Part shown: positions 3,451-23,002 of the stretch, piece by piece | Numbering within the stretch: the stretch's first letter is position 1 | Layout: each line of letters opens with the position of its first letter | DNA from: a virus | IMG/VR virus record: IMGVR_UViG_3300048446_000552 | Span: 1-39,838 of that record | DNA: 39,838 nucleotides | Direction: 5' to 3' (one strand) | Position numbers and translations under genes: made by a program | Notes under the pieces: model-generated | The model's database searches: none | The model's input: the letters and a program-made list of their open reading frames with translations, nothing else | Told to the model about the DNA's origin: nothing

Positions 3451-4435
3451 TATTGAAAAAGTTCTTGAGAAGCTGGGCGTAGAATATGAGTCTTTTAGTG
3501 ACAATATATATTCAGTATGTCCATGTCATGAAAATAGTGATAACCCAAGAGCCTTTTCCTATTCTATTGAAAAAGGTATATGGAAGTGTTGGACGCGAGA
3601 TTGTCAAAACGAATTTAATAACGATGTGTTTGGATTAATAAAAGGAGCCTTGTCTCAAAAGTCGGGTACTGATCTTGAGTTTACAGATGTATTAAAATGG
3701 ATATGTAAAGAGTTTAATATAGACAAACAACAGTACAATCAATCTATAGACCCTATAGAAAAAGAAGATGACTTTTCTAATCTGATAAAATCCATATCTA
3801 AGCGAGCAACTAAAAACTTTACTGACAAAATTATAGATAACCCATACGAATTTGAAACACCTTCTGAATACTTTCTATCTAGAGGCTTTAAAAAATCTAC
3901 TTTAAAATATTTTGGCGTGGGAGATTGTTATGATACAGGTATAATGAAAGAGAGGTCTATTATACCCATACATAATGATACTGGAGAGAAGCTTGTGGGC
4001 ATGATAGGCAGGACCATTAAAGAATATAGAATGCCTAAGTTTCTAATATATCCATCTGGATTTAACAAACGTTACTATTTTTATAATTATCATAGAGCGA
4101 TAGAGAAAGCGAAAGAAACAAATTGTTTGTACATAGTCGAAGGACAGGGAGATGTATGGAAGCTACATGAAGCTGGCGTAAGAAACGCAGTTAGCATATT
4201 TGGGAAAAGTATATCCAAAGATCAAGAATCAAAAATAAAAAAGCTACCCATCACAAGGTTAATAATACTGATGGATAATGATCAGGCTGGAAGAGAAGCT
4301 AGAGTGCAAATGAAAAGACAGTTTGGGAGAATGTATAGGTTAACATTTCCCAAGCTAATTGATAAAGATGTGGGAGACATGTCAGTATACAAAATAAAAA
4401 AAGACATTTTGAGTAACCTTAAGGGGACATACTAA
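3413..4435 (+). CDS. dnaG: DnaG-type primase, short form
   Basis: The 340-residue protein has an N-terminal zinc-binding module with C36, H39, C59 and C64 (CPCH...CWTRDC), and a TOPRIM domain with VEGQGD (acidic residue after YI) and the DNDQAGR motif. It synthesises RNA primers on the lagging strand. It is much shorter than cellular DnaG (about 580-650 residues) and lacks room for the C-terminal helicase-binding domain, so it may contact DnaB differently. The ATG at 3413 overlaps the helicase gene by 38 bases with no clear SD; a TTG a little downstream is possible, and the first dozen residues are Lys/Asn-rich and unconserved in character. The stop overlaps the next ATG (TAATG). Confidence 0.88.
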   Translation: MNLKKLKKNLNNNIEKVLEKLGVEYESFSDNIYSVCPCHENSDNPRAFSYSIEKGIWKCWTRDCQNEFNNDVFGLIKGALSQKSGTDLEFTDVLKWICKEFNIDKQQYNQSIDPIEKEDDFSNLIKSISKRATKNFTDKIIDNPYEFETPSEYFLSRGFKKSTLKYFGVGDCYDTGIMKERSIIPIHNDTGEKLVGMIGRTIKEYRMPKFLIYPSGFNKRYYFYNYHRAIEKAKETNCLYIVEGQGDVWKLHEAGVRNAVSIFGKSISKDQESKIKKLPITRLIILMDNDQAGREARVQMKRQFGRMYRLTFPKLIDKDVGDMSVYKIKKDILSNLKGTY

Positions 4436-6222: not shown

Positions 6223-7104
6223 ATGGAAAAACTATTAACTATAGGAATGTGTACATACGACGATATAAATGGAGTGTATTTCTCCCTACAGTCTCTTAGA
6301 TTGCACCACCCTCTGGTGCAGGATGAAAGAGTAGAATTAATAGTAGTAGATAATAATCCAGATGGAAGCCACGGAGCAGCACTGAAGAAGTGGATTAATG
6401 GCTGGTGTAAGAAAAAAGTAAAATACATACCTTATACTGAAAAGAAATCAACGTCTGTTAGAAATTTAATTTTTGATAACGCAGAAGGAAAGTATTGCAT
6501 AAGCATGGATTGTCACGTTTTGTTTCCAACGGGATCATTAGAAGCCCTGTTAGAATATTACAAAGACAAACCAGACTGCAAAGATTTAGTACAAGGACCA
6601 TTAATGTATGACAATATTACAGGATACTCTACTCATTTTACTCCGGGCTGGGGTGGTGACATGTATGGGAAGTGGGGTAAGGATGTAAAGTCATACGAAA
6701 AAGGAGTTCCATTTGATATACCAATGCAAGGGCTAGGAGTTTTTTCATGCGAAACAAAAAACTGGTTAGGTTTTAATAATAATTTTAAAGGATTTGGGGG
6801 CGAGGAAGGATATATACACGAAAAATTTAGACAAAACGGAGGAAGAACTGTCTGTATTCCTAAGTTTAAATGGTTGCACAGATTTTTGAGGCCAGATGGA
6901 GTTAATTATCCTCTGGTTTTAGAAGATAGGATTTGGAATTATTTAATAGGGTGGCTAGAACTAAAAAAAGATCCTGACGACCCAATGGTAAAATCAATTT
7001 GTGATTACTTTTCAACAAGAATATCACAAAAAAAATTAGATATTTTATTAACAAAGGCAATTCACGTAACAAACAGGGAGCTTACACATGTCCGAAAACA
7101 TTAA
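6223..7104 (+). CDS. Family 2 glycosyltransferase (GT-A fold)
   Basis: The 293-residue enzyme has the GT-A layout: LTIGMCTYDD at the N-terminus, ELIVVDNNPDG, the SVRN segment and D96-C-H98 in place of the usual DxD metal site, followed by an acceptor-side GFGGEEGYIHEKFRQNGG motif (the ED/EE catalytic base region) and WLHRFLRP. It probably transfers a sugar from a nucleotide-sugar donor; donor and acceptor are not evident. It lies alone among replication genes, about 6.8 kb upstream of the main sugar-enzyme cluster. ATG 6223 follows the nuclease stop by one base; its SD is weak. Confidence 0.85.
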   Translation: MEKLLTIGMCTYDDINGVYFSLQSLRLHHPLVQDERVELIVVDNNPDGSHGAALKKWINGWCKKKVKYIPYTEKKSTSVRNLIFDNAEGKYCISMDCHVLFPTGSLEALLEYYKDKPDCKDLVQGPLMYDNITGYSTHFTPGWGGDMYGKWGKDVKSYEKGVPFDIPMQGLGVFSCETKNWLGFNNNFKGFGGEEGYIHEKFRQNGGRTVCIPKFKWLHRFLRPDGVNYPLVLEDRIWNYLIGWLELKKDPDDPMVKSICDYFSTRISQKKLDILLTKAIHVTNRELTHVRKH

Positions 7105-7684
7105 TGAAATTGATTATCAGTACACCAGTTCAACATATGGATTCACTGAAGAGCTTACAGAAGAAAACTTTTACATTCCTGCTGAAGCAGAGTACGAAGA
7201 CTTTGGAGAAGAAACAGAAGAGCATGATGCAGCCTCTCTTTGGGAAAACATTCGTAAGAAAAAAGAACGTGAAGGTAAAAATTATAAGCCAGCTAAAAAG
7301 GGTGATAAAGATAGACCAGACCCAGAAGCTTGGAAAAAGGCTCAATCAGAACCTTCTGAGAAACAAAAAAAATCTCTTGATAAAAATAAAGATGGCAAGG
7401 TTACTAAGGAAGATTTTGAATTACTACGTAAAGGTAAAGGCGCTGAATACCAAGGTAAAAAAGTACAACTTGGCAAACCATTTAGAACTCCCGATGGACC
7501 AAAGAAGAGAAGCGTTTATGTTAAAAACGATAAAGGCAATGTAGTTAAAGTAAACTTTGGCGATCCTAACATGAAGATCAAAAAGAATGATCCGGGTAGA
7601 CGCAAGAACTTCAGAGCAAGGCACAACTGTGACAATCCCGGCCCAAGATGGAAGGCTAGATACTGGTCATGCAAAGCTTGGTAA
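7088..7684 (+). CDS. Phage protein with EF-hand-like loop and conserved basic C-terminal domain
   Basis: The 198-residue protein has three parts. The N-terminus (1-60) is acidic. A Lys-rich middle contains a single EF-hand-like loop, DKNKDGKVTKED (about residues 99-110). The C-terminal 65 residues are basic, with LGKPFRTPDGPKK, GDPNMKIKKNDPGRRKNF and RARHNC...YWSCKAW. I recall this C-terminal module as widespread in marine phages, sometimes fused to other proteins, with unknown function and two conserved cysteines; I am not sure of its database name. ATG 7088 has GGGAG seven bases upstream and overlaps the glycosyltransferase end by 17 bases. A structural or DNA-binding role is possible. Confidence 0.75.
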   Translation: MSENINEIDYQYTSSTYGFTEELTEENFYIPAEAEYEDFGEETEEHDAASLWENIRKKKEREGKNYKPAKKGDKDRPDPEAWKKAQSEPSEKQKKSLDKNKDGKVTKEDFELLRKGKGAEYQGKKVQLGKPFRTPDGPKKRSVYVKNDKGNVVKVNFGDPNMKIKKNDPGRRKNFRARHNCDNPGPRWKARYWSCKAW

Positions 7685-7896
7685 AAAGATGGAGAGATCA
7701 TTTAAATAAAAATAATATGACTTACTGCGAACACTTTAAATTTGCAGTAGGTCATGGTTTGTGTTGTATTAAAGCTGGTGTATACTTATGTATACATGGT
7801 ATTTTGCCTTGCTTCAGACGTAGGGCTGGCACTAGATTAGTCAGAAGATTAAACAAAGACTTCACAGAGCATAAGAAAAATGTCACTAATAAATAA
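7669..7896 (+). CDS. Small DUF6356-like protein
   Basis: The 75-residue product contains HLNKNNMTYCEHFKFA followed by an amphipathic/hydrophobic segment (LCCIKAGVYLCIHGILPCF) and a basic end. This resembles the small DUF6356 family, in which a H-N-M-TY-EH-KFA block precedes a hydrophobic helix reaching FP. It is probably membrane-associated; function unknown. ATG 7669 overlaps the previous gene by 16 bases; a second in-frame ATG at 7717 would lose the WRDHLNKNN part, which looks like part of the family, so the upstream start is preferred. Confidence 0.65.
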   Translation: MQSLVKRWRDHLNKNNMTYCEHFKFAVGHGLCCIKAGVYLCIHGILPCFRRRAGTRLVRRLNKDFTEHKKNVTNK

Positions 7897-8569
7897 TGTA
7901 GACGCAATAATAAATACTAAAAAAAGCGTAGATGATATAGGTTATTATGATCAACCAATATCATATGAGTCTAATATAGATGTAAAAAATATACTAAAAA
8001 AGCCAGCTAAAAATAGTAGCTTAACAACAAGAAAAGAACTAGAAGTTGTAGCTAACGCAACCAAGAACAGAAGCTTAAAAGAGCTTGACTTAGTTTATGT
8101 AGCCGATAAAGATCCTTTACTAATCTTTTATGATTTTCTAAAATCTAAAAGTCTTCAATTTGATAAATCTACTTTTGATGTATATTGGAATATATTAGAA
8201 CAATATGTTTACGCTTTGAAATATTATTTTAATAGGGCTAGACCTGAACAAATAGCGCGATACTATGGCGTAGAAATCAAAGTTTTACATACAGATACTC
8301 ATCATACACCGTCATACCCAAGCGGTCACGCTATGTATGCAGACTTGGCATATAAAATGCTTGCAGAGGAGTATCCAGAATACAAAGAAGATTTTTTAAG
8401 AATATCAGACTACTGTGCTTTCGCCAGAGTTTTGCAAGGCGTTCATTATCCGTCAGACAATGTGGCTAGTAGAAAAGCAGTTTCCATTATATATCCAGTA
8501 TTGAAGGAGCATATCAATGAATACGAAAGAAGTCAAAAGTTTCCCTCTGCTACCAATAGACAAGGTTAG
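7880..8569 (+). CDS. Soluble PAP2 / acid phosphatase family protein
   Basis: The 229-residue protein has the three PAP2 motifs in order: K114...R121-P122 (KYYFNRARP), P147-S-G-H150 (SYPSGHA) and R183-x5-H189-x3-D193 (RVLQGVHYPSD). All catalytic residues are present. There are no membrane spans, unlike lipid phosphatases, so it resembles class A acid phosphatases and soluble phage members, but no signal peptide is visible either. It would remove phosphate from a soluble or surface phosphomonoester, perhaps a nucleotide or sugar phosphate. It overlaps the previous gene by 17 bases and lies next to a methyltransferase and near sugar enzymes. Confidence 0.88.
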   Translation: MSLINNVDAIINTKKSVDDIGYYDQPISYESNIDVKNILKKPAKNSSLTTRKELEVVANATKNRSLKELDLVYVADKDPLLIFYDFLKSKSLQFDKSTFDVYWNILEQYVYALKYYFNRARPEQIARYYGVEIKVLHTDTHHTPSYPSGHAMYADLAYKMLAEEYPEYKEDFLRISDYCAFARVLQGVHYPSDNVASRKAVSIIYPVLKEHINEYERSQKFPSATNRQG

Positions 8570-8621
8570 ACCAGAACCTAACGAGCCTACTAAAATACCA
8601 ATGCCACCGAAAAGCAAATAA
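8517..8621 (+). CDS. Small Pro-rich protein (34 residues)
   Basis: ATG 8517 has an excellent SD, AAGGAG with seven bases of spacing. The ORF begins out of frame inside the end of the PAP2 gene and stops at 8619-8621, sharing TAATG with the following FkbM gene. The product is MNTKEVKSFPLLPIDKVRP followed by PEPNEPTK-type sequence ending PPKSK, basic and proline-rich, without a hydrophobic segment. The strong ribosome-binding site and the coupling to the next gene make it likely to be translated. Its job may be mainly to couple translation of the downstream gene, or it is a small peptide of unknown role. Confidence 0.6.
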   Translation: MNTKEVKSFPLLPIDKVRPEPNEPTKIPMPPKSK

Positions 8622-9241
8622 TGTATATAGATTTTATAGACATAGGTACATCAGATTTTAGATACACAATACCCAAAGAGGGTGAGTGTGGGATATACGT
8701 AGAACCAATCAAATTTTATCTAGATAAAATACCTGATTACGATTGCACTAAAAAATTTCAAGGTGCTGTAATGGAAAAACGCACCGTTGAAAAAATATAT
8801 TATTTAAATCCAGATATTCTACACTCCTATGCCCTACCTTATTTTCTCAGGGGCTGTAATAGGATTGGAGAAGTTCACCCAGCTATAATAAGAGAATGTA
8901 AACACAAGTCACTTGATTATAGCAAACTTATATCTATAAGCGAAGTGTCTTGTATAACAATGAGAGACCTTGTTAATGTCTTCTCTGTTGACAGGGTTGG
9001 TGTAATAAAAATTGACATAGAAGGATACGATTGTCAAATAGTACAGCAAGTGGTAGAATTAGTTAAGGAAGGCATACCTTTTGAAAGAGTAATCTTTGAA
9101 GCACATCCAGATCTAACTAATAGACTTTTGTTGCAAGAAACAAAACTTTGCTTATTGAATAGTGGCTTTTTGATGAAGAAAAATATTGACCTCAATCATA
9201 CTAACAAGTTTGATATGGAGTTTTACTTAGGAGAAAAATAA
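8621..9241 (+). CDS. FkbM-family methyltransferase
   Basis: The 206-residue protein has a class I SAM-methyltransferase layout of the FkbM type: an N-terminal FIDIGTSDF (degenerate glycine loop), GIYVEP, and the family hallmark GVIKIDIEGYD at about residues 127-137, followed by PFERVIFEAHP. FkbM-type enzymes O-methylate sugars or small molecules. Members in glycan gene sets often cap sugars, which fits the glycosyltransferases nearby. It is slightly shorter than many members. The stop is directly followed by the TTG start of the polymerase gene. Confidence 0.82.
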   Translation: MYIDFIDIGTSDFRYTIPKEGECGIYVEPIKFYLDKIPDYDCTKKFQGAVMEKRTVEKIYYLNPDILHSYALPYFLRGCNRIGEVHPAIIRECKHKSLDYSKLISISEVSCITMRDLVNVFSVDRVGVIKIDIEGYDCQIVQQVVELVKEGIPFERVIFEAHPDLTNRLLLQETKLCLLNSGFLMKKNIDLNHTNKFDMEFYLGEK

Positions 9242-10813
9242 TTGAATTGGTTCCCGTTGAAAAATTTTACACATTACAGTTTGCTAAAAGGGTTTTCAAA
9301 ACCACACGAGCTTGCAAGAGTGTGTGCAGATAATGACTATCCAGCTTGTGGTATAACAGATTACAAATCTATATCAGGGGCTGTGTCTTTTCATCAAGCT
9401 TGCAAGAAGGTTGGAGTAAAGCCAATTATCGGATGTTCTTTTGATAACACTACTATCTATGCTAAAAACAAAGATGGTTGGCATGATTTAATACAAATGG
9501 TATCAACGACAGACGAAGATGGTAAAATACACAAAGATATTGCTGAAGAAATTATAAAAAGGAAAAATCTTTTAGCAATAGAAAAATCTAAAGATGAAAT
9601 ACTACCATCTTATTATGTAACTCCAGATCAAGCCGTTCTACACAGAGTCTTATTGTGTTCGGCTATGAAAACTACATTACCAAAGATACAAACAAAAATT
9701 AGAAAAGGCGATTTAGATAAAGATGTGTTAGATTATTTTAGCAAAGATGACAAATGCATAAAAGAACAAAAGGTCTGTAAACAGTTGCAATATGTGTACG
9801 AATCTTGCGAAGAATACGACATACTTAATCCTCCCATGTTGCCTACATTCGTATGTCCCAACAATCAAAGTCAAGAACAATATCTAACTACTATGGCTAG
9901 AGAAGGATATAAACTTCTTGTGCAAACAAAAGTTGGTAAAGATAGTGATAAGAAAACAGTTTACGGAGACAGGTTTAGAAAAGAGCTAAAAGTTATTAAA
10001 GATGCAGACTTGTTTGGTTACTTCTTAATCGTTCAAGATATCATTAGACACGTAGAAAAAGACAAGAATTGGCTCGCCGGACCCGGAAGAGGATCTGCTG
10101 CTGGCTGTTTGATATCCTACCTAATTGGAATTACCAAGATAGATCCGGTAGAACATGATTTGGTTTTTGAAAGATTTTATAATGCAGGAAGAAACACTGG
10201 CGGTCATGTTTCTCTACCTGATATTGACATGGATGTTCCCGGCAAACGTAGAGACGATGTGATAGATTATTTAAAAGAAAAATATGGTCAAGAACATGTT
10301 AGTCAGATGATTACATTTGGAAGACTGCAAGGAAGAAGTGCTATAAAAGAAGTACTTAGAATTAACGAGGCTTGTTCTTTTAGTGAAATGAACGCTATTA
10401 CTAAGAGTGTGCCAAATGAAGCAGACATATCTGACCAATTAGCAGAAATGGACGACGATGATAGATCAATCATACGGTGGTCTTTAATCAACAGGGCAGA
10501 TGAACTAAGGGACTTTTGCCATATCACAGACAGTGGAGAACTTGAAGGTGACTATGCAGAGTATTTCAAGCAAGCAATAAACATAGAGGGTACTTTTAAA
10601 ACTCAGGGTAAACATGCTGCTGGAGTAGTCATATCCAAAGATAAACTAAAAGACGTTTGCCCAATGATTCAACAGAAAGGTTCTACAGAAAAAATTGCAG
10701 GATTAGAAATGTCTGATCTAGAAGCACTAGGTCATGTGAAATTTGATGTTCTAGGAATTAATCTTCTAGACAAACTTATGAAAATAAAGGAATTGACTAA
10801 TGATAGAGGTTGA
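9242..10813 (+). CDS. dnaE: DNA polymerase III alpha, N-terminal half (PHP remnant and palm)
   Basis: This 523-residue chain covers the first half of a DnaE. Residues 9-60 are a PHP-like start (FTHYSLLKG, GITDYKS, VGVKPIIGC) that has lost the metal-binding histidines, and the PHP region is shortened to roughly 120-150 residues. The palm has GPGRGSAAGCLISYLIG (about 280), the catalytic aspartates D327 and D329 (LPDIDMD), FGRLQGRSAIKEVLR, KHAAGVVIS and the third aspartate D502 (VKFDVLG). It then stops within the palm-fingers linker; thumb, fingers, HhH and OB parts are in the gene at 11964. The start is TTG, directly after the FkbM stop, with AGGAG eight bases upstream. It overlaps the next gene by 14 bases. 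Confidence 0.92.
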   Translation: MNWFPLKNFTHYSLLKGFSKPHELARVCADNDYPACGITDYKSISGAVSFHQACKKVGVKPIIGCSFDNTTIYAKNKDGWHDLIQMVSTTDEDGKIHKDIAEEIIKRKNLLAIEKSKDEILPSYYVTPDQAVLHRVLLCSAMKTTLPKIQTKIRKGDLDKDVLDYFSKDDKCIKEQKVCKQLQYVYESCEEYDILNPPMLPTFVCPNNQSQEQYLTTMAREGYKLLVQTKVGKDSDKKTVYGDRFRKELKVIKDADLFGYFLIVQDIIRHVEKDKNWLAGPGRGSAAGCLISYLIGITKIDPVEHDLVFERFYNAGRNTGGHVSLPDIDMDVPGKRRDDVIDYLKEKYGQEHVSQMITFGRLQGRSAIKEVLRINEACSFSEMNAITKSVPNEADISDQLAEMDDDDRSIIRWSLINRADELRDFCHITDSGELEGDYAEYFKQAINIEGTFKTQGKHAAGVVISKDKLKDVCPMIQQKGSTEKIAGLEMSDLEALGHVKFDVLGINLLDKLMKIKELTNDRG

Positions 10814-11291
10814 AGTTACAGATTATATGAGAGTTAAAGCTAGAAGTATGGCAAGAGAACTGGGCAAGCTTAAAAACTCTATAACAAAAGGCGATGGCAA
10901 CATTGCTGGTTTTATAGGAGAATTGATAGCCTTGAATCATCTTGGTGGAGTTCAAGCCAACACTTATGATTTCGATATTGTAAGTGATGGTAAAACATAT
11001 GATGTAAAAACCAAGCGATGCACAAGTCCTCCTAAACCAAACTATGACTGTTCAGTAGCTGCGTTCAACACAAAACAAAGATGTGATATTTACTTTTTTG
11101 TAAGAGTGCAATTTCAAGGCGATAGACCTGTGAAGGCGTGGATATTAGGACAGAAGGATAAGGCTGAGTATTTTAAGCAAGCTCGAAAACTAAAGAGGGG
11201 TGACATTGATCCAAGTAATAATTTTAAGGTTAAAGCAGATTGTTTTAACTTAAGTATTAACAAACTAGAGAAACTAGAAAAGAAGGACTAA
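10800..11291 (+). CDS. PD-(D/E)XK nuclease-like protein inside split polymerase locus
   Basis: The 163-residue protein has the core of a PD-(D/E)XK nuclease: E41 in a helix (GELIALNHLGG), D59 (DFDIVSDG) and D68-V-K70 (YDVKTK), followed by strands SVAAF and IYFFVRVQF. It should cut DNA and needs a divalent metal. ATG 10800 has AAGGA eight bases upstream and overlaps the polymerase N-half by 14 bases. Two roles are possible: a replication or repair nuclease expressed with the polymerase core, or a free-standing mobile endonuclease whose arrival broke the polymerase gene. The DxVK-type core is broad, so a family name is not given. Confidence 0.75.
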   Translation: MIEVEVTDYMRVKARSMARELGKLKNSITKGDGNIAGFIGELIALNHLGGVQANTYDFDIVSDGKTYDVKTKRCTSPPKPNYDCSVAAFNTKQRCDIYFFVRVQFQGDRPVKAWILGQKDKAEYFKQARKLKRGDIDPSNNFKVKADCFNLSINKLEKLEKKD

Positions 11292-11293
11292 TT

Positions 11294-11974
11294 ATGGCTA
11301 ACAGAGACTATATCGTATTTGATTTTGAAACAGGAAGTCGTAATCCTCATAAAACACAACCTACACAGATTGCGGCGATTGCATTGGATGGTCGTAATCT
11401 AGCTATGAAAGGATCGTTTAATAGCGAAATTAAACCTATACTAGATGATGACAAGGCTATAGCTGCTGGTGTAGACCCAATTGAAGATGGCGCACTAAAG
11501 GTCACTGGTAAGAATAGAAAAGATCTAGCCAAAGCTCCCGCGCTAAAATCGGTATGGAAAAAGTTTTGTTCTTTTGTAGATCAATACAATTGGAAGAAAG
11601 ACCCGTTCTTTAATCCTATACCAGTAGGATTTAACATCATTGGTTTTGATATGATTATCATCAATAGATTGTGCCAAGAGTATGGACCATTTGATGAAAC
11701 AAGACAGCAACAAAAAATATTTAGTAAGATTCATAAGTGTGACGTAATGGATAACATGCATATGTGGACTGAGGGAGACCCTAGCATAAGATCAATTAGT
11801 ATGGATACTCTACGTGAACGTATGGGTCTTTCTAAAGAAAACGCTCACGATGCATTGCAAGATGTTAAAGATACAGCTAATATCTTTATAAAGCTATTGA
11901 AGACACACAGGGCGGTATACCAAAACATTGAACTAGACAAGGCGTTTGCAAACGGTAATTTGTATGTCAAATGA
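11294..11974 (+). CDS. dnaQ: DnaQ-like 3'-5' proofreading exonuclease (DEDDh)
   Basis: The 226-residue protein has all DEDDh residues: D10 and E12 (VFDFETG), D119 (NIIGFDM), H185 and D190 (AHDALQDVKDT). This is the epsilon-type exonuclease that removes misincorporated bases for pol III. The gene sits between the two halves of the alpha subunit, so all three core chains are made from the same message in the order alpha-N, nuclease, epsilon, alpha-C. ATG 11294 has AAGGA six bases upstream. The usual epsilon clamp-binding Q-motif is not obvious by eye. Confidence 0.92.
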   Translation: MANRDYIVFDFETGSRNPHKTQPTQIAAIALDGRNLAMKGSFNSEIKPILDDDKAIAAGVDPIEDGALKVTGKNRKDLAKAPALKSVWKKFCSFVDQYNWKKDPFFNPIPVGFNIIGFDMIIINRLCQEYGPFDETRQQQKIFSKIHKCDVMDNMHMWTEGDPSIRSISMDTLRERMGLSKENAHDALQDVKDTANIFIKLLKTHRAVYQNIELDKAFANGNLYVK

Positions 11975-13529
11975 ATATGACGATAAAGAAACTTGGGAAT
12001 TATTTACAGAAGGTAAAACTAAGGGTGTTTTCCAACTAGAGAGCAACCTTGGTAAGTCTTGGTCTAAAAAACTTGCACCAAACAATATTGAAGAATTGTC
12101 TGCACTTATTGCTATTATTAGGCCGGGGTGTTTGAAAGCATTCGTAGATGGCAAGTCTATGAGCCAACACTTCATTGATAGAAAACACGGTAGGGAAGAG
12201 GTAACATACCTACATGAATCGTTAGAAGAGATCTTATTGCCTACCTATGGCGTACTTGTATATCAAGAACAGTCCATGCGTATAGCACAAAAGATAGCTG
12301 GGTTTAATCTTCAAGAAGCAGATGATCTTAGAAAAGCAATTGGGAAAAAGAAAGCAGACCTAATGGCTAAAGTTAAGAAGAAATTTATTTCTGGCGCTAA
12401 GAAAACTGGAATTGTAGATAAAGAAACAGCAGAAGAAATATTTAGTTGGATTGAAAAATCTTCTAGGTATGCTTTTAACAAATCACACAGTATATCTTAC
12501 GCCGTTTGTTCTTATTGGAGTGCATATCAAAAGGTTCACAACACTAAAGATTTCTTTCTTTCTTATCTTTATTATGCTAATGAGAAACAAGACCCTCACC
12601 AAGAGATATATGAATTAATTTCTGATGCAAAATTGTTTGACATAGAACCAAGAACACCAAGCGTTGCTAACTTTGATATAAAGTTTAACATCAAGAAGAG
12701 AAAAGTTTACTTTGGTATCAAAGATATAAAATCTCTCACAGGTAAAACTGGAGACAAGGTAGTAGAAGCAATATCAGAGTCAGAAAAAGAACTTAATAAA
12801 AAAATAAATAAATTTAACTGGATAGAAATACTACTTTTCTTTGCTCCAAAGATAAGCTCTACAGCTTTTAAAGCATTAGCTTCTGTAGGATTTTTCAGAG
12901 ATTTCAATGGAAAAATTTCCAGAAACAAAGCAATATACGACTACGACATATACAGAACACTCACCAAGGCAGAACAAACTTGGATACAAAAGAATTACGA
13001 ATCTAAAAAGTGGACAGACTTCATCCAATGCTTAAAAGATCTAGCACCTACAAAAAAACAAGGTGGTGGAACAAGCAGGGTAGAGAGGCAGCAGTTAGTA
13101 GAAAATGAAATTCAATTACTGGTAGACCCTCCATACGATTTAGATGATGACCCTTCTTGGATTATAGACCAAGAGACTAGGTATCTAGGATGCCCAGTAA
13201 CAATGGCTAAAATTGATACAGCTGACAAATCATCTGCCAATACAACTTGTAAAGATATAGTCAACGGCAAGAACGGTAAGGGTATCTGCGTAGTAGCAAA
13301 TATTCAGCGCATGGCAGACTATACTATCAAAAAAGGGGAATCTAAGGGTCAGGTCATGTCATTCTTAACCATTGAAGATGACACATGTGTACTAGACAGT
13401 GTTATTATATTCCCAAAAGTTAAACAGAAATATAAATATATATTATATGAAGGGAATAATCTGATGTTTTGCGGATCAGTTGGCTCTAAAGATAATTCAT
13501 TAATTGTAGATAAAGTTCATGAAATTTAA
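11964..13529 (+). CDS. dnaE: DNA polymerase III alpha, C-terminal half (fingers, thumb, HhH, OB)
   Basis: This 521-residue chain continues DnaE from the point where the first half stops. It opens with DDKETWELFTEG, then TKGVFQLESNLG, IIRPGCL, FIDRKHGREE, PTYGVLVYQEQSM, GFNLQEADDLRKAIGKKK and RYAFNKSHSISYA (fingers/thumb), then a tandem helix-hairpin-helix region and a C-terminal OB domain (ETRYLGCPV, MSFLTIEDDTCVLDSVIIFP). No conserved block appears to be missing between the halves. ATG 11964 is preferred over the upstream TTG at 11946 because it is ATG and leaves a modest overlap of 11 bases with dnaQ; the SD is weak either way. No intein motifs flank it. Confidence 0.92.
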   Translation: MSNEYDDKETWELFTEGKTKGVFQLESNLGKSWSKKLAPNNIEELSALIAIIRPGCLKAFVDGKSMSQHFIDRKHGREEVTYLHESLEEILLPTYGVLVYQEQSMRIAQKIAGFNLQEADDLRKAIGKKKADLMAKVKKKFISGAKKTGIVDKETAEEIFSWIEKSSRYAFNKSHSISYAVCSYWSAYQKVHNTKDFFLSYLYYANEKQDPHQEIYELISDAKLFDIEPRTPSVANFDIKFNIKKRKVYFGIKDIKSLTGKTGDKVVEAISESEKELNKKINKFNWIEILLFFAPKISSTAFKALASVGFFRDFNGKISRNKAIYDYDIYRTLTKAEQTWIQKNYESKKWTDFIQCLKDLAPTKKQGGGTSRVERQQLVENEIQLLVDPPYDLDDDPSWIIDQETRYLGCPVTMAKIDTADKSSANTTCKDIVNGKNGKGICVVANIQRMADYTIKKGESKGQVMSFLTIEDDTCVLDSVIIFPKVKQKYKYILYEGNNLMFCGSVGSKDNSLIVDKVHEI

Positions 13530-13577
13530 GTTGTTCTTATAGCTTGTACAAGCTAATATACTAAGATAGGAGAGGGT
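13530..13577 (+). promoter_or_regulatory. 16-bp perfect palindrome and possible promoter before ssb
   Basis: This is one of the few non-coding gaps in the plus block. It holds TAGCTTGTACAAGCTA at 13540-13555, a perfect inverted repeat without a spacer, which suits a dimeric repressor or activator site better than a terminator (no U-tract follows). TATACT at 13557-13562 (five of six matches to a -10 box) lies just downstream, and TTGTTC at 13531-13536 is a weak -35 candidate (20-base spacing to TATACT, 17 to the overlapping TAATAT). AGGAGAGGGT just before the ssb ATG is a strong ribosome-binding site. Promoter status is inference. Confidence 0.4.
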
Positions 13578-13883
13578 ATGAATAATTGTTGTTTTACTGG
13601 ATATTTTACAGAGAATCCCAGAACTTCTGTTATAGATAATGTAGTCTTAGCAGAATTTGTTGTAGTTACATATACATATAGAAAGACAAAAAGTACTGGG
13701 GAGAAAAGCAAAATACCCACATATCTTCATTGTGAAGCGTGGCACACTGGCGCTGAGACCTTGGAAAGATTTGCTACCAGAGGAACTAAAATTACCTTTA
13801 ACGCAACAGCCAAGAATATATCAAAGGATGATGAAAGTATAGTATTTAGAATCAACGAATTCGATCTGTGTTCGGAGGAATAG
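13578..13883 (+). CDS. ssb: Single-stranded DNA-binding protein (OB fold)
   Basis: The 101-residue protein follows the SSB pattern: an N-terminal NNCCFTGYFTENPRTSV strand, AEFVVVTYTYRKTK, then PTYLHCEAWHTGAETLERFATRGTKI, matching the F/VxCxxWgxxAe block of bacterial-type SSBs, and a final strand. It is essentially the bare OB domain: there is no disordered tail with the acidic partner-binding tip, although it ends in DLCSEE. It would coat single strands at the fork made by the upstream helicase and polymerase. Preceded by a short gap with a palindrome. Confidence 0.82.
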   Translation: MNNCCFTGYFTENPRTSVIDNVVLAEFVVVTYTYRKTKSTGEKSKIPTYLHCEAWHTGAETLERFATRGTKITFNATAKNISKDDESIVFRINEFDLCSEE

Positions 13884-13884
13884 T

Positions 13885-15540
13885 ATGCGGAAAAAGAGGA
13901 TACTTTTTTGTAGCGAAGCTACATACTTAAATACTGGTTACGCTACCTACACCAGAGAAATACTCAAATACTTAAGTGAAACCAATAAGTATGAAATAGC
14001 AGAACTAGCTGCGTATGGTCAAGCTGATGACCCTAGAATTTCATCAATACCTTGGAAGTTCTATCCAGTAGCATTACCTAGAAGCGCAAGTCAAGAAGAG
14101 CATCAAGCATTTGCTTCTAAAGCAACTAATCAATTTGGAGAATATGTATTTGAAAATGTTTGTTTAGATTTTATGCCAGATATTGTTTGCGATATAAGAG
14201 ATTTTTGGATGATGGATTTTGAAGAGAGATCTCCATTTAGGAAATTTTTTAAATGGTGCATAATGCCAACCGTTGATGCTCAACCACAAGCTAGACAATG
14301 GATAGCTAGTTATCAAAACGCAGATGCTTGTTTAAGTTATTCAGATTGGTCTGGAGAGTTACTAAAGAAACAGTCTGGTGGTAAAATAAACTACATTGGA
14401 TCTTCTCCACCCTCTGCTCATCCAGCATACCAACCAATGCAAAATGTGGATGACATAAAGAAAAGACTAGGTATAGATTTAGATTTCAAAATTATAGGAA
14501 CTGTAATGAGAAATCAAAGAAGAAAACTGTATCCCGATCTTTTTGAAACATTTAGAAAGTTGCTAGATAGCACAAATGATAAAAACTTGAGGCTGTATTG
14601 TCACACAAGCTACCCAGATATGGGATGGGATATACCAGAGCTTTTACAACAATACGATTTATCTTCAAAAGTATTGTTTACTTATGTGTGTACAGAAACT
14701 AAACAACCGTTTGCTTCTGTTTTTCGTGGCGCTAAGGCAGAATCGCCATATACTAAAAAACTTACATCAGTTTTATCAAATGTAAAACAGGGTTTAACTT
14801 ATGAACAATTAGCTGAAATCATGAACACGTTTGATGTATATATTCAGTACGCTAATTCTGAAGGCTTTGGCTTGCCCCAAGTAGAAGCAGCTGCGTGTGG
14901 CGTTCCTGTTATGAGTGTAGACTATTCTGCTATGGAGAGTGTCATAAGAAAACTAGGTGGCACTCCACTACCAGTAAAAACTCTTTACAAAGAATTAGAA
15001 ACTGGATGTATGAGAGCTGTTCCAGACAATGAAATAGCTGCCAAAAAACTAGAAGAATTTTTTAATATACCAAAAGCAATGAGGAAAAAACAGGGTTTTG
15101 ATTGCCGCAATAACTTCTTAGAACATTTTCAGTGGGATAAAAGTGGCTCTCAGTGGGAGAAATATTTTGACAGTGTAGAAATCGCAGACCCAAAAACAAC
15201 TTGGTATTCAACTCCTGACATACAGCAGTCATCACCAAAACCAGAGCAAGCACCACAAGCTTCTTATCAAGATGTAGCATACTGGTTAATAAATGAAGTC
15301 CTAAGACTTCCTGAGTGGTCAAACACTTACATGTTCTCTAGAACAATTAGAGATTTAATGTATGGTAGTGCCACAAATATGACAGGAGGTATGTATATGA
15401 ACGAATGCTCTACAGCTTTCGAGAACACACCTCATAGAAATATGTTTAATTTTGATATTGCCTATCAAAAAATGAAGCAAATGAGAGACAATATAAACTA
15501 CTGGGAAAGTCGCAGGATGGAGGTTCTGAATAACAAATGA
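13885..15540 (+). CDS. GT4-like glycosyltransferase (GT-B fold) with C-terminal extension
   Basis: The 551-residue protein has an N-terminal GT-B domain (RILFCSEATYLNTGYATYTREIL), a long middle, IGTVMRNQRRKLYPDLFETFRKLL (start of the donor domain) and the donor-binding E326-x7-E334 motif (NSEGFGLPQVEAAACGVPV). It probably uses a nucleotide sugar with retention of configuration. The last hundred residues or so, after a Pro/Gln-rich linker, form an extra segment (DVAYWLINEVLRLPEWSNTY...) not typical of the family; it may bind the acceptor. ATG 13885 has GGAGG six bases upstream. It opens the main sugar-enzyme cluster. Confidence 0.87.
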   Translation: MRKKRILFCSEATYLNTGYATYTREILKYLSETNKYEIAELAAYGQADDPRISSIPWKFYPVALPRSASQEEHQAFASKATNQFGEYVFENVCLDFMPDIVCDIRDFWMMDFEERSPFRKFFKWCIMPTVDAQPQARQWIASYQNADACLSYSDWSGELLKKQSGGKINYIGSSPPSAHPAYQPMQNVDDIKKRLGIDLDFKIIGTVMRNQRRKLYPDLFETFRKLLDSTNDKNLRLYCHTSYPDMGWDIPELLQQYDLSSKVLFTYVCTETKQPFASVFRGAKAESPYTKKLTSVLSNVKQGLTYEQLAEIMNTFDVYIQYANSEGFGLPQVEAAACGVPVMSVDYSAMESVIRKLGGTPLPVKTLYKELETGCMRAVPDNEIAAKKLEEFFNIPKAMRKKQGFDCRNNFLEHFQWDKSGSQWEKYFDSVEIADPKTTWYSTPDIQQSSPKPEQAPQASYQDVAYWLINEVLRLPEWSNTYMFSRTIRDLMYGSATNMTGGMYMNECSTAFENTPHRNMFNFDIAYQKMKQMRDNINYWESRRMEVLNNK

Positions 15541-16646
15541 AAGTTTTATATGTAGCCCACTTTGGCGAAAAATCTAATTGGTCATATTCTGCAATACACA
15601 GGGTCTTGTCGTTACAGAGTTCTGGAATTGATGTGGTTTGTAGAAACATTCCTTTACAAAGTAGTCAAGGTAATGTACCAGAATTTATAGAAAATTTAAC
15701 AAAAAAAGATACACAAAATGTAGATATTTGCATTCAACACGTTCTTCCAAACATGGTTATAGGAAGTAACAAGTTTAAGAAAAATGTTCTTTGCGCACAT
15801 ATAGACACAGAGATTAGTGAGAATCATCCTTGGTATCACTATTTTAATATGGTCGATGAGGTTTGGGTAAACAACAAGGATAGCTTAGAAAATTTGACAA
15901 ACATTGGAGTTAAAGCTAGTTGTATTCCAATGACTTTTAATACAGAACTTTACGGCAAAGTAGACAGGAAAATAGACTTAGGTGACATGAACAATAAGTT
16001 TAAGTTTTATTTCTCATCATCAGTGGGAGAGAAGAATAATCTAAACGGATTGATAAGATCTTATCTAAGTGAATTTGATAACTCAGACAATGTGTGCTTT
16101 GTATTTAATGTGTACGACACAAGACATACAGAAGAAAATATGAAAAATTATTTTTCTGATTATATAAATAAGAATAAAGAGGCTATGAGAGTCAATAAGA
16201 ACCATTCTCATTTTCCTCCAGTTTATCTTATAACAAAACCGCTGAATATTTTAGAGCAACAAAGCTTACATTTTAGCTGCGACTGTTATGTAGACATAAC
16301 AAAAAGTAGAGATTTTTCCATCACTGGATTTGAAGCAATGTGTCATGGGAAAACTCCTATATGCTCTAACACTGGAGGCTATAAAGACTTTGTAAAACAA
16401 GACAAAAATATTGGAAAGTTAATCAACGGTGTAAGCACAATATGTTTTGATCCAAATCCACCAGTTGAAAATTTATATAAAAGTAATGAATTTTGGTTCT
16501 CTCCAGACGAAAAAGAATGTAAAAAAGCAATGCGTTGGTACTACGAAAATAAAGAAAGTATAGATCGCAAGGCTGGCATGGGTGTCGGTAAAGAGTTTGA
16601 CTATGAAGCTATTGGCAAACAGATGAAGGAAAGTCTAAATGAATAA
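15537..16646 (+). CDS. GT-B glycosyltransferase-like protein
   Basis: The 369-residue protein shows the two Rossmann halves of a GT-B enzyme: KVLYVAHFGEKSNWSYSAIHRVL at the N-terminus, DEVWVNNKDSLENL and KASCIPMTF at the hinge, KFYFSSSVGEKNNLNGLIRSYL opening the donor domain, then SRDFSITGFEAMCHGKTPIC, in which the usual E-x7-E is altered (only the later Glu is clear). It is likely a glycosyltransferase of the GT4 type. Overlaps of 4 bases upstream (ATGA) and 8 bases downstream place it in the same transcript as its neighbours. Confidence 0.78.
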   Translation: MKVLYVAHFGEKSNWSYSAIHRVLSLQSSGIDVVCRNIPLQSSQGNVPEFIENLTKKDTQNVDICIQHVLPNMVIGSNKFKKNVLCAHIDTEISENHPWYHYFNMVDEVWVNNKDSLENLTNIGVKASCIPMTFNTELYGKVDRKIDLGDMNNKFKFYFSSSVGEKNNLNGLIRSYLSEFDNSDNVCFVFNVYDTRHTEENMKNYFSDYINKNKEAMRVNKNHSHFPPVYLITKPLNILEQQSLHFSCDCYVDITKSRDFSITGFEAMCHGKTPICSNTGGYKDFVKQDKNIGKLINGVSTICFDPNPPVENLYKSNEFWFSPDEKECKKAMRWYYENKESIDRKAGMGVGKEFDYEAIGKQMKESLNE

Positions 16647-17163
16647 ACTAAAGAGATTAATTAGCAAGAGTAATATAAATTTAGAAAAAAAAGTTTGCAA
16701 CTGTATCATATTTACTACTAACGAAGAGTATGAACAGAAACTATGCAAGACTGATCATAATTTTTACGCATTCTCATCGGAACAATTAAAGAAATGGGAT
16801 CACGAAGAGTATAAAAAACCTGACAATTACTTTATACTTCCTGAGAATGAAATTCCTATATGGACTAATTTTGATGTTGTAATAGTACAGCACAAGTTGG
16901 GACAATATGCTTCTGGTAGAAAGATTTCTAATCTCTTAGAATTACCACTTGTTGTAGTTGAACACTCTATGCCTAGATCTATAAGCAAAATGGAGCAACA
17001 ATTAGAACAACTTACGGCTATGAGGGGAGATTTAAATGTATTCACAAGTCAAGAATGCGCTGAAGCTTGGGGCATAGAAGATAATTATATTATAAATAGT
17101 GAACCAGAAGAAGACTTTGTGGTACAATGGCAAGTATTATTAGAACAATTTTATGAAAGGTAA
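16639..17163 (+). CDS. Half-size GT-B-like protein (N-terminal domain only)
   Basis: The 174-residue protein looks like the acceptor-side Rossmann domain of a GT-B glycosyltransferase: NFDVVIVQHKLGQYASGRKI, LPLVVVEHSMPRS, DLNVFTSQECAEAWGI. There is no donor domain and no E-x7-E. It may pair with another chain of the cluster, be a degenerate remnant, or act as a binding module. ATG 16639 has AAGGA eight bases upstream. Assignment rests on fold resemblance by eye. Confidence 0.55.
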   Translation: MNKLKRLISKSNINLEKKVCNCIIFTTNEEYEQKLCKTDHNFYAFSSEQLKKWDHEEYKKPDNYFILPENEIPIWTNFDVVIVQHKLGQYASGRKISNLLELPLVVVEHSMPRSISKMEQQLEQLTAMRGDLNVFTSQECAEAWGIEDNYIINSEPEEDFVVQWQVLLEQFYER

Positions 17164-17165
17164 AT

Positions 17166-17588
17166 ATGAATTTACAAATTTTATCGGACCAAAAAGATGC
17201 AATAGAAGGATTCGCTATTGTTCAAGTAAAAGATGGAGAATGTAAAGACATTGAACAAGTAATAGACAGTTCCTGTGAATTAGTAGTTCTTGACGGAGCT
17301 ATGGACCATTTGGAATATAAAGATTCTATTGAACTGATGGCGATGGCTACAAAAAAAGTAAGACTAAAAGGTGAGTTAGTCATAAGAGGAATTTGCCTAG
17401 AAAAACTTTATAGAGATTATAAGTCAGAAGAAATAACAATAGAAGAACTAAACAACACTTTAAAAAATATAAAGTCTATTCAAAATTATAAGGATATTAT
17501 ATCCGCTTTAATGAGTCAAAACTTTTCTGTAGATACAATTTCTTATGTAAATAGTTTTTATGAAATACATTGTTCAAGGAAGAACTAA
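17166..17588 (+). CDS. Degenerate methyltransferase-like protein
   Basis: The 140-residue protein resembles the C-terminal half of a class I methyltransferase: LVVLDGAMDHLEYKDSIELM in place of the usual post-motif strand and helix, then KVRLKGELVIRGI (motif III-like strand-turn-strand) and FEIHC-like final strand (SFYEIHC). The glycine-rich SAM-binding motif is missing, so catalysis is doubtful. It could be a partner or a decayed enzyme. AAAGG lies five bases before ATG 17166; the stop overlaps the next ATG (TAATG). Confidence 0.45.
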   Translation: MNLQILSDQKDAIEGFAIVQVKDGECKDIEQVIDSSCELVVLDGAMDHLEYKDSIELMAMATKKVRLKGELVIRGICLEKLYRDYKSEEITIEELNNTLKNIKSIQNYKDIISALMSQNFSVDTISYVNSFYEIHCSRKN

Positions 17589-18322
17589 TGACAAAAATAA
17601 AACAGGCCAAAAAAGTAGATAAAAGATTATTAAGCTTTGCCATACTGTATGATCAACAGTCTAGCAAAAGTAAGAATCAACAACTACAAATGGCTATGAT
17701 AGACCATCAGCTGAAACTTTTAGACAAACAAATTAATTCTATAAATAAAAAATATGTAAAAAATGAAATAATAATATGCGTAGGCTATCAGTCTGATATT
17801 GTCATTCGTCACATTCACGAAAATCACTCAAAGAAAAACATTAGAGTGGTGGAGAATACTAATTATTTTGATAGTAATAGTTGTGAAAGTTTAAGAATTA
17901 TAATGAACAATATAAGCAACAATAGAATAATTATTATGGATGGATCAATGTCTGTGCCGGAAAGAGTTTATAGCAAGCTAGGTGTTGATGGTTGTCACAT
18001 TGTAGTCTCAAAACAGAAAAACGAAAGCGGAAACGTGGGAGCAAACATATCTAAAGAAGATAAAGTTGAATATCTCTCTTACGGTGGCTGTCAGGAGTGT
18101 AAAAACATACTGGTCCTTTGCAACCCAAGAGCCATTAGTCTTATGAAAAGAATATTGTCAAGTGGTGAATATAAAAATAAATTTATTTTTGAAATACTAA
18201 ACGATCTGATATCATTAAAATATGTTGTAAAAGCAATACAGGTTAAAGAAAAAATTAATCAAATATCCAATATGAAGTTTATGAAAATTAGAGGAAAGAA
18301 ATATGAAATTTATAATAGATAA
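17588..18322 (+). CDS. Nucleotidyltransferase-like protein with altered catalytic loop
   Basis: The 244-residue product has the order of elements of sugar-1-phosphate or phosphocholine nucleotidyltransferases: SFAILYDQQSSK, a helix HQLKLLDKQINSINK, NEIIICVGYQSDIVIRHI, RVVENTNYFDSNSCESLRI and RIIIMDGSMSVPERVYSKL. However, the Gly-rich NTP-binding loop (GxGxR) and the Lys after it are not conserved, and the LxGD-type motif reads MDGS. It may therefore be a binding protein or a diverged enzyme. ATG 17588 is preferred over the upstream TTG at 17570 because AAGGA lies seven bases before it and it forms a TAATG overlap. Confidence 0.55.
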   Translation: MTKIKQAKKVDKRLLSFAILYDQQSSKSKNQQLQMAMIDHQLKLLDKQINSINKKYVKNEIIICVGYQSDIVIRHIHENHSKKNIRVVENTNYFDSNSCESLRIIMNNISNNRIIIMDGSMSVPERVYSKLGVDGCHIVVSKQKNESGNVGANISKEDKVEYLSYGGCQECKNILVLCNPRAISLMKRILSSGEYKNKFIFEILNDLISLKYVVKAIQVKEKINQISNMKFMKIRGKKYEIYNR

Positions 18323-19157
18323 CTATACTACAACCTCCAGTTCCCAAGCTTTGTATTTTGCAGAACATATACATGCAATGGAAGAACATGAAGTATATAT
18401 GTTGAAGCAGGGTAAAGAAAGTATATTTGACGCATTTGATAGGTTCGGTCCAGACGTATATATTACTTCAACTAATCTGCTGTCAAGAGACGCAGTTATG
18501 TATATCACACAACAAAAAAATATTAACCTGATAGTATCTATTAATGGAACAAATAATAATGATGTATTAGAAATAGAATCTGCTATACTAGAATCAAAAA
18601 TTAATTGTCCGTTTTTTATATCTAATCTAAGAGACGATAAACAACCAATGACTAAAAAAATTAAAGTTATAAGGTTTATGGAGTCTGTCGATACCAATTT
18701 TGACACTGAAGTGAGCATAGATTATAATATAGATAAACTAGTAGTCGCTGGAAAAGAAAGTCCTAATATTAGAAATTATTATGGAACTTTTCATGTGGCT
18801 TCTCAGGCTAAAGAACTAGCTAATATTGCAGATTTGTGTCTTCCAATTAACATTTTAAGCCCACTACTAGAAAACTATAAAGAAGTCGTCTTTCAAGAAT
18901 TTGGAAACTACATCCCTCAACTATTCTTTCACTCTTTAGCTATTGGAAAGCCAACTTATTATGACTTAGAGGATCAAGAAAAAGCAGACATGGTTGATGA
19001 TACGTGTGATAAAGTATTTGGTGTTGGGAATAAGTTAAATTACTCATGCGTAGATAAGATCACAGACTTTAAGGATCTACAGGAGAAGGTATTAGCAAAG
19101 CATACTTCTAGAAATAGAGTTAAATCTTTGCTCTCTCAAATACCTAAAAAGAAATGA
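18303..19157 (+). CDS. Putative GT-B-like protein of the sugar cluster
   Basis: The 284-residue protein has alternating strands and helices suggestive of a two-domain Rossmann protein: FGPDVYITSTNLLSRDAVMYI, NLIVSINGTNN, KIKVIRFMESVD, a central LVVAGKESPNIRNYYGTFHVASQ and ADLCLPINILSPLLENYKEVVFQEFGNYIPQ. The overall pattern recalls CgeB-type or spore-coat-type glycosyltransferases, but I see no decisive motif. AGGA precedes ATG 18303 at seven bases; the gene overlaps the previous one by 20 bases and the next by 4 (ATGA). Confidence 0.5.
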   Translation: MKFIIDNYTTTSSSQALYFAEHIHAMEEHEVYMLKQGKESIFDAFDRFGPDVYITSTNLLSRDAVMYITQQKNINLIVSINGTNNNDVLEIESAILESKINCPFFISNLRDDKQPMTKKIKVIRFMESVDTNFDTEVSIDYNIDKLVVAGKESPNIRNYYGTFHVASQAKELANIADLCLPINILSPLLENYKEVVFQEFGNYIPQLFFHSLAIGKPTYYDLEDQEKADMVDDTCDKVFGVGNKLNYSCVDKITDFKDLQEKVLAKHTSRNRVKSLLSQIPKKK

Positions 19158-19879
19158 ATCACTTACAAGACGTAACGATTATATCAATTTGTCACAACGA
19201 TAAATTCCAAGATACAATTCACGCTATGGATTATTCCATGTCGCAAATAAGTTTTGGTAAAAGCTTAATAATCACAGAAGACAAATTAGATCCAGCGCAC
19301 AGGAGGATGATTGATCACAGGTTGTATCCTAATATCAATGTTCAGGTACTAGACAAAACTATTGATCTTAGAGAGTATAACAGGATATGTATAGAAGATT
19401 TGTGTTCTTTTATTGACACAGACTATTGCCTACTAATGCAATGGGACGGTTTCGTGATAGACGGAAACAGGTGGCGTGATGAGTTCTTAGAGTATGATTA
19501 TATCGGCGCTCCTTGGAGTGTGCCAGTAGGATCTAGAAACAACATAGGAAATGGTGGATTCTCTTTGAGAAGTAAAAAATTTTTAGAAGTTAGTTCTAAA
19601 TTAAGATACAATCCAGACGACTGCGAGTGGTTACACCCAAGCCAAAAACTAGCATTGCCAATAGCTCCAGAAGATTGGTATATGTGCTATAGTAATTATA
19701 AACATTTTAGCAATGAAGATATTAAGTTCCCAGATACAAAAACAGCTTACAAATTTTCAGTAGAACACTCGTCATCACTACAACCATTTAACCCCTTTGA
19801 TGTAAAGACATATAAATCTTTTGGTTTTCACGGAGAATTTAATGAAGCCGCTATGGAGATGCTAAATGTTAGACAGTAA
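19154..19879 (+). CDS. DUF5672 glycosyltransferase-like protein
   Basis: The 241-residue protein matches the DUF5672 pattern well: TDYCLLMQWDGFVID (about residues 90-104), YDYIGAPW, then NNIGNGGFSLRSKKFLE, IAPEDWYMC, AYKFSVEHS and KSFGFHGEF at the C-terminus. This family is found in glycan gene clusters of bacteria and large viruses and is considered a GT-A-like transferase, with the Asp in QWDGF and the Glu-Asp in PEDW as probable active-site residues. It is nearly full length. Confidence 0.85.
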   Translation: MNHLQDVTIISICHNDKFQDTIHAMDYSMSQISFGKSLIITEDKLDPAHRRMIDHRLYPNINVQVLDKTIDLREYNRICIEDLCSFIDTDYCLLMQWDGFVIDGNRWRDEFLEYDYIGAPWSVPVGSRNNIGNGGFSLRSKKFLEVSSKLRYNPDDCEWLHPSQKLALPIAPEDWYMCYSNYKHFSNEDIKFPDTKTAYKFSVEHSSSLQPFNPFDVKTYKSFGFHGEFNEAAMEMLNVRQ

Positions 19880-20648: not shown

Positions 20649-21093
20649 TTTTGGCGTATACTTAAACTCAATAGGTGATAATGATATAACAAATAATATA
20701 TGCAAGGAAATAAACAGAGCTATTTATCAAGATGTAATTAAAGACGCTAGTATATTCTATGATCAAATAGGACACATAGAATCAAAACTTCCTTGTGGAA
20801 TATTTCATTCTTCAGACTTATGGAATTTTAGAGGTAGCTTGCTTGTATTATCAATCAGCTCCGCTCTAAGAATTAAAAATATAGCAAATGGAATTAATAT
20901 GATTTTAGGATATGGGTGGGGGCATAAGAATGTTTTGGCAACACTAAAAATGCTAGAGGATGAAAAAATTAAAACATTTTGCTACTCAGAAGATTTAGCC
21001 AAAGACTTTTATAGAATTAGTGGCAAAAAACCCATAGGTTACTCTGAGGATTTTAAAAATTCTATCAACATAATTATGGAACAAACACAATGA
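20641..21093 (+). CDS. Hypothetical protein at end of sugar cluster
   Basis: The 150-residue protein has no recognised motif. Notable parts are CGIFHSSDLWNFRGSLLVLSISSALRIKNI and MILGYGWGHKNVLATLKMLEDEKI, which suggest an alternating alpha/beta fold; no signal peptide or clear membrane span. It overlaps its neighbours on both sides (8 bases and 4 bases, the latter ATGA). Context suggests a partner of the sugar enzymes, not proven. Confidence 0.5.
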   Translation: MNNFGVYLNSIGDNDITNNICKEINRAIYQDVIKDASIFYDQIGHIESKLPCGIFHSSDLWNFRGSLLVLSISSALRIKNIANGINMILGYGWGHKNVLATLKMLEDEKIKTFCYSEDLAKDFYRISGKKPIGYSEDFKNSINIIMEQTQ

Positions 21094-21860: not shown

Positions 21861-21870
21861 AAGGACTATT

Positions 21871-22970: not shown

Positions 22971-23002
22971 TAGATAAAAGGAAACTCTATCTGTTCTAAA
23001 GT

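Follow-up and report, generated by a model that had tools for sequence, protein, structure and literature searches.

A DnaE-type polymerase III alpha subunit encoded in two genes, with an epsilon-like exonuclease gene between them, in a family of viral contigs

Can the alpha subunit of DNA polymerase III be cut for good into two genes, or does an alpha gene found in two pieces on a viral contig reflect an error, decay, or a protein that is later joined again? The question is raised by IMG/VR record IMGVR_UViG_3300048446_000552 (39,838 bases, linear, probably a fragment), the whole of which was analysed and is referred to below as the window. Four consecutive genes without gaps, on the + strand at 9242-13529, encode an N-terminal portion of alpha (alpha-N), a nuclease, an epsilon-like exonuclease and a C-terminal portion of alpha (alpha-C) (Table 1). 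To our knowledge, polymerase III alpha is described as a single chain in the bacteria surveyed, save for intein-rejoined cases and some fragmented sequences. It is quite probable that the window, like a large and widespread group of uncultured tailed phages, carries a permanently fissioned DnaE, that its two chains assemble non-covalently with a co-expressed epsilon into the only replicative core of the phage, and that the gene junctions are invaded by endonucleases.

Coverage of DnaE by the two chains

The two chains were aligned with full-length DnaE references and covered them without overlap. Against Escherichia coli alpha, alpha-N (274-573) stops at 573 and alpha-C restarts at 591; against NCBIfam NF004226, alpha-N runs up to 573 and alpha-C from 588; and on PHROG 405 (1190 positions) the two occupy 245-617 and 627-1055. 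The PHP, palm, thumb, fingers, HhH, and OB domains are present in DnaE order across the pair. As the initial annotation had stated, the catalytic aspartates D327, D329, and D502 all lie in alpha-N, and they are invariant in 56 relatives. The motif AFNKSHS is unbroken in alpha-C, with FN-SH invariant among relatives. Fingers, thumb, HhH, and OB had been assigned to the second chain; three of them were found there, but the thumb lies in alpha-N, since the E. coli thumb loop (residues 464-470, PMC4703070) falls within the stretch that alpha-N covers. Alpha-C alone was predicted by AlphaFold2 (AF2) to be well ordered (predicted local distance difference test, pLDDT, 90.4) and matched Pol III alpha over 520+ columns.

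The break is in the palm-to-fingers linker. In the window, 18 residues follow KFDVLG in alpha-N and 20 precede GVFQLES in alpha-C, compared with 36 residues between the two motifs in the unbroken relative (locus L217), so that no conserved block is missing, in agreement with the initial annotation. Across the family loci, alpha-N runs 12-29 residues past KFDVLG and the alpha-C match starts 11-20 residues before GVFQLES.

By its domain and residues, the exonuclease encoded between the alpha halves is an epsilon/DnaQ-like DEDDh enzyme: PF00929 (RNase_T) spans its full length, and the DEDDh residues can be read from the sequence in FDFET and HDALQDVKDT. The PHP metal motifs of the window are not intact (NFTHYS and TDYKS, versus HSHLSLLDG and TDHGS in L217). 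The PHP domain is ~100 residues shorter, with altered metal motifs, in the clade of the window and in the sister clade, and the full motifs are kept in L217 and in the clades of L073-L081 and L062/L147. A degenerate PHP site does not disqualify the protein as a DnaE, because proteobacterial DnaE1 also has one and relies on epsilon (PMC3919608). The decay of PHP would fit a proofreading role for the embedded exonuclease. The epsilon and alpha-C genes overlap by 11 nucleotides (the alpha-C open frame spans 11946-13529, its likely start being the ATG at 11964), and the overlap between alpha-N and epsilon is ~11 nucleotides in loci that lack the nuclease gene. Alpha-N, epsilon, and alpha-C may be made, and presumably co-translated, from one tightly overlapping operon.

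Conservation of the break and the unbroken relative

Viral contigs were scanned using alpha-C, alpha-N, the nuclease, and the unbroken relative as seeds, with six-frame comparison and removal of duplicates. With the window counted, the scan yielded 163 distinct family loci; because the seeds belong to the same family, the proportions given here describe the family as sampled. Alpha is encoded as two chains, not one polypeptide, at 162 of these loci, always split at the same linker and always with epsilon between the halves. The single unbroken locus is L217 (same virus as L219). Split loci with the same break come from many metagenomes and reach down to ~45% identity. No cellular or prophage relative of the locus was found in a scan of a genome collection.

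A break seen on one metagenomic contig, with halves that end and start at ordinary stop and start codons, could in principle stem from faulty sequencing or assembly, or mark a pseudogene in decay. The recurrence of the break at 162 of 163 loci, together with low ratios of nonsynonymous to synonymous substitution (dN/dS), makes both error and decay vanishingly improbable, as does the lack of any other detected polymerase in 18 large relatives. In pairwise comparisons of the window with close relatives, dN/dS was 0.03-0.10 for alpha-N, 0.015-0.056 for epsilon, and 0.02-0.03 for alpha-C, with several dS values near saturation. All three genes are under purifying selection.

The halves might instead be rejoined after transcription or translation, by a split intein, trans-splicing, or an intron, into one mature chain, as classic split inteins join the DnaE halves of cyanobacteria. 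Two relatives within the same family do have split-intein halves at FNK|C. In the window, however, alpha-N ends shortly after KFDVLG and alpha-C starts with MSNEYDDKETW, which leaves no room for intein halves; neither alpha chain matched an intein model, no Rfam match was obtained over 9000-14000, and the DNA between the halves is all coding and under purifying selection. The initial annotation, which saw no intein and no intron-sized gap at the break, was borne out in this respect, and rejoining is very improbable. Alpha-N and alpha-C most likely associate non-covalently, without protein splicing, and would be active as a polymerase in that form.

It had also been proposed that the break is not at the classic DnaE intein site. 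This is correct for the window, where AFNKSHS is intact, but does not extend to two relatives (L217 and L220), which have a split intein exactly there; this phage family thus has members in which the split-intein site classic for cyanobacterial DnaE is occupied. The gene order in L217 is nuclease, epsilon, alpha. Its alpha is continuous through the palm-fingers linker and is interrupted at FNK|C, where the elements in order are a split-intein N half (NCBIfam intein_Nterm), a gene for a Vsr-like endonuclease, and the intein C half with the remaining C-terminal part of alpha. The split intein is located at L217:9079-11884 (also L219, L245, and L246) and at L220:11799-15238, and the open reading frame between its halves is Vsr/DUF559-like. 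In L220 the window-type split occurs together with two inteins, a cis intein located at RPG|C and, at FNK|C, the same split intein as in L217; the near-identical L222 lacks the one at FNK|C. The arrangement in L217 resembles the fractured genes that Dassa and colleagues (2009) reportedly described.

A tree of 66 sequences placed all family members in one clade (support 100), with L217 nested among the split ones (Shimodaira-Hasegawa-like approximate likelihood ratio test, SH-aLRT, 99). A tree in which L217 is the sister of the whole split group was only 0.52 log units worse and was not rejected (approximately unbiased, AU, test, p 0.489), and a smaller, careful tree did not decide between the two placements either. 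There may have been one fission followed by re-fusion in L217, or one fission after L217 branched off. In a Pseudomonas Pbunavirus, epsilon is directly upstream of an unbroken alpha, as in L217, which fits the second history. A tandem duplication of epsilon-alpha with complementary loss would yield the order alpha-N, epsilon, alpha-C, and is offered only as a suggestion.

Replicative role and comparison with known systems

Each of the 18 large relatives (G001-G018, 103-200 kb, completeness not known) gave exactly one match to PF07733 and none to PF00136 or PF00476 (family B and family A polymerases). A second replicative polymerase, which the initial annotation regarded as one finding that would tell against a working split enzyme, was thus found neither in the window nor in these records. 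The alpha locus shares a module with genes for a DnaB-like helicase and a Toprim primase (Table 1), and a dNMP kinase and a PD-(D/E)XK exonuclease are also encoded in the replication module of the window. Judged by the sole-polymerase finding, the module context, and what is known of the polymerase family, the split alpha is most likely the replicative polymerase of the phage, and epsilon would act on it within the core.

Table 1. Features of the polymerase locus and its replication module in the window
Feature	Position	Strand	Details
DnaB-like helicase	1981-3450		Same module as the alpha locus
Toprim primase	3413-4435		Same module as the alpha locus
Alpha-N	9242-10813	+	523 residues, TTG start; PHP (reduced, degenerate metal site), palm D327/D329/D502, thumb; PF02811 and PF07733
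End of alpha-N, ...AAGGAATTGACTA	10780-10799	+	Ribosome-binding-like stretch, present whether the site is empty or filled; the nuclease cassette is inserted here
Facultative PD-(D/E)XK endonuclease (predicted)	10800-11291	+	163 residues, ATG start; E41, D59, D68-V-K70; between the end of alpha-N and the epsilon start codon
Epsilon-like DEDDh 3'-5' exonuclease	11294-11974	+	226 residues, ATG start; PF00929; phrog_192, DNA polymerase exonuclease subunit
Alpha-C	11964-13529	+	521 residues, ATG start; fingers, HhH, OB; PF17657 and HHH_6
SSB-like OB protein	13578-13883	+	PF00436 at 7e-5, below cut-off; follows alpha-C in most relatives (synteny)

Since the two chains are translated separately, the halves could be functionally parted, with alpha-N and epsilon as a separate module, or with a host polymerase copying the DNA while the halves regulate or repair; the decayed PHP metal site of alpha-N in the window clade would suit such a change of role. 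This is improbable, given that the catalytic and fingers motifs are invariant in both halves and that the halves are always neighbours, within a module that also encodes a DnaB-like helicase, a primase, and an SSB-like protein. Several further points weigh against a non-covalent replicative core. All relatives are metagenomic contigs of which the completeness is not known, and the collection searched held no cultured member of the family. No beta-clamp (PF02767) match was obtained in the 18 large relatives, although control genomes did match, and no canonical clamp-binding motif was recognized in alpha-C. A search for a T4-type clamp (PF02916) also gave no match, but the control genomes gave none either, so that this negative carries no weight. 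The assembly of alpha-N, alpha-C, and epsilon into a three-chain core would depend on binding among the chains, which is presumed.

A broader form of the fission reading can be put forward tentatively, and is somewhat doubtful: an obligate heterotrimeric core throughout the clade, with the proofreader gene locked between the halves after a single ancient split, junctions that serve as docking sites for homing endonucleases, and a possible origin of the split intein of cyanobacterial DnaE in phages of this kind. The ground for the last idea is the presence in the same clade of FNK|C split inteins with a Vsr-like endonuclease gene.

Two-chain phage polymerases are already known, and it is the present arrangement that is apparently new: the literature searched, subscription papers being outside the search, yielded no description of a complete Pol III alpha that is broken at the palm-fingers linker and has epsilon between its halves. 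In cyanobacteria, DnaE is likewise made from two genes, DnaE-n and DnaE-c; there the break is at FNK|C, and intein halves join the products by trans-splicing, whereas the break in the window is ~170 residues before that site and has no intein. The gp43A/gp43B proteins of Aeromonas phages 25 and 44RR also constitute a two-chain phage replicative polymerase without splicing, with an associated endonuclease gene, and the chains of phage 25 copurify and are active; they differ in being a family B, T4-like, scattered case with no epsilon gene reported in the break (PMC2988022). Group 2.2 jumbo phages have a family C alpha homologue as two standalone proteins, but it is minimal (no PHP, HhH, or OB reported), its genes are far apart, and a family B polymerase is present in addition (PMC7824862), whereas the split alpha of the window has a complete domain set and adjacent genes, with no PF00136 in the 18 large relatives. 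Permanently split essential phage enzymes with endonuclease genes nearby are also known from the Aeh1 nrdA genes-in-pieces and T4 topoisomerase genes 39/60, the products of which are active as separate chains (PMC2988022); those are other enzymes, and in the present family the fixed embedded gene encodes a presumed functional partner, epsilon, not an endonuclease.

The cultured Cellulophaga phage phiST resembles the window in having DnaE in two adjacent genes (gp044/gp045, KC821604), each carrying the annotation DNA polymerase III alpha. It is only distantly related, its DnaE is interrupted ahead of the LPDID catalytic motif, and the break contains no epsilon gene. At this locus (L242:4769-8369, break before LPDIDTD) the first half ends with ~55 extra residues (YKLTLEDGSIVELPEGTVVKI...) and the second starts with ~17; the extra residues of the first half are Hint-like to the eye and gave no intein model match. 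In Alicyclobacillus phage MMB025 (L238:4141-8503), DnaE is annotated as two pieces around an endonuclease gene with spacers, which looks like an intron insertion.

As a natural and conserved two-chain version, the split alpha indicates that a permanent cut in the palm-to-fingers linker is possible with no conserved block lost, and it would provide a ready-made split replicative polymerase for work on assembly, speed, fidelity, and epsilon dependence. There is also a consequence for gene finding: phages of this kind will be recorded as fragmentary or polymerase-less by pipelines built around a single DnaE.

Endonuclease and other genes at the junctions

Based on predicted fold and catalytic residues, the nuclease encoded between alpha-N and epsilon is a PD-(D/E)XK endonuclease. 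Its model (AF2 pLDDT 86.7) gave Foldseek matches to the restriction endonucleases NhoI, Eco15I, and DpnI (for NhoI, E 1e-4 and prob 1.00, with a TM of only 0.45), and E41, D59, and D68-V-K70 are invariant in an alignment of 30 nuclease relatives. No Pfam, PHROG, or NCBIfam family was found for it. The initial annotation took the order alpha-N, nuclease, epsilon, alpha-C as a unit, and for the nuclease this had to be given up. Only 11 of the 163 loci have it between the halves; in 43 it is upstream of alpha-N, in the unbroken locus it is upstream of alpha, and the stretch examined in the remaining loci did not show it. Five of the 18 large relatives have the nuclease, one of them ~68 kb from the polymerase, and the other 13 do not.

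Relatives without the nuclease have the empty site ...AAGGAATTAACTA joined to ATGGCTAATAGAG. In the filled site of the window, ...AAGGAATTGACTA is followed by a cassette consisting of ATGATAGAG, the nuclease gene, and AAGGACTAATT, after which the sequence continues with ATGGCTAACAGAG. The two kinds of site differ by this clean cassette, precisely at the boundary of alpha-N and epsilon. The nuclease has a dS of 0.52-0.61 (window versus L003, L008, and L019), below the values of 1.3 to above 5 for neighbouring genes, which indicates that the nuclease alone probably spread laterally at a later time. With its facultative, precise, and flank-independent occupancy, it is apparently mobile and behaves like a free-standing homing endonuclease, which would cleave and home accordingly. 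A place for it as a component of the polymerase core was considered and rejected, given its rarity between the halves and the filled and empty sites.

An insertion of a homing endonuclease could have made the split itself, as with the Aeh1 nrdA genes-in-pieces, and the window nuclease would then be the culprit or its descendant. The junctions are indeed hot spots, with endonuclease VII-type HNH genes in ~38 loci and other HNH or endonuclease-like genes, and the window nuclease is facultative with a low dS. But the nuclease is missing from most split loci, it is found where alpha-N meets epsilon and is not what directly separates the alpha halves, and L002, which lacks it, already has the order alpha-N, epsilon, alpha-C. 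The nuclease of the window would thus have invaded an operon that was already split. An endonuclease origin of the break retains a small but real chance, mainly through some older endonuclease. Under permanent fission with later invasion, free-standing endonuclease genes would repeatedly enter the junctions, and the window nuclease would be one of these and not a part of the polymerase.

At the epsilon/alpha-C junction, the small endonuclease VII-type HNH gene (PF02945; L005, L012, L018, L024, L173, and ~33 others) is positioned precisely between the two genes and takes over the start codon that overlaps epsilon. Other loci have different endonuclease-like, FkbM methyltransferase, or glycosyltransferase genes at this junction, and further HNH genes and FkbM-type genes are found at the alpha-N/epsilon junction. 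Endonuclease genes at the junctions are frequent but optional, and the fixed separator of the alpha halves is epsilon. The variety of inserts suggests that the alpha operon is a standing target for mobile genes, an essential operon turning into a docking site for mobile endonucleases; such targeting has been reviewed for T4-like phages (PMC2988022).

Some inserts are confined to particular loci. A divergent clade (L175, L183, L186) has a conserved ~75-codon open reading frame between alpha-N and epsilon, with consensus YQVWSD...DAVDKF and no clear family, and L070-L081 have a different one of ~60 codons at the same junction. In L069 and L071, 2.7-3.7 kb of extra genes lie between epsilon and alpha-C, including one for a ThyX-like protein; this insert also encodes a protein start typical of planctomycete pseudopilins, a possible hint at the host. 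Elsewhere in the window, two more HNH/homing endonuclease-like genes are located at 703-1128 and 21090-21860 (PHROG 9084 and 559). Many glycosyltransferase and FkbM-type methyltransferase genes surround the replication module (6223-23000), a PAP2 phosphatase is encoded at 7880-8569, and an open frame of >2,000 codons on the - strand (33620-39838) runs off the end of the contig.

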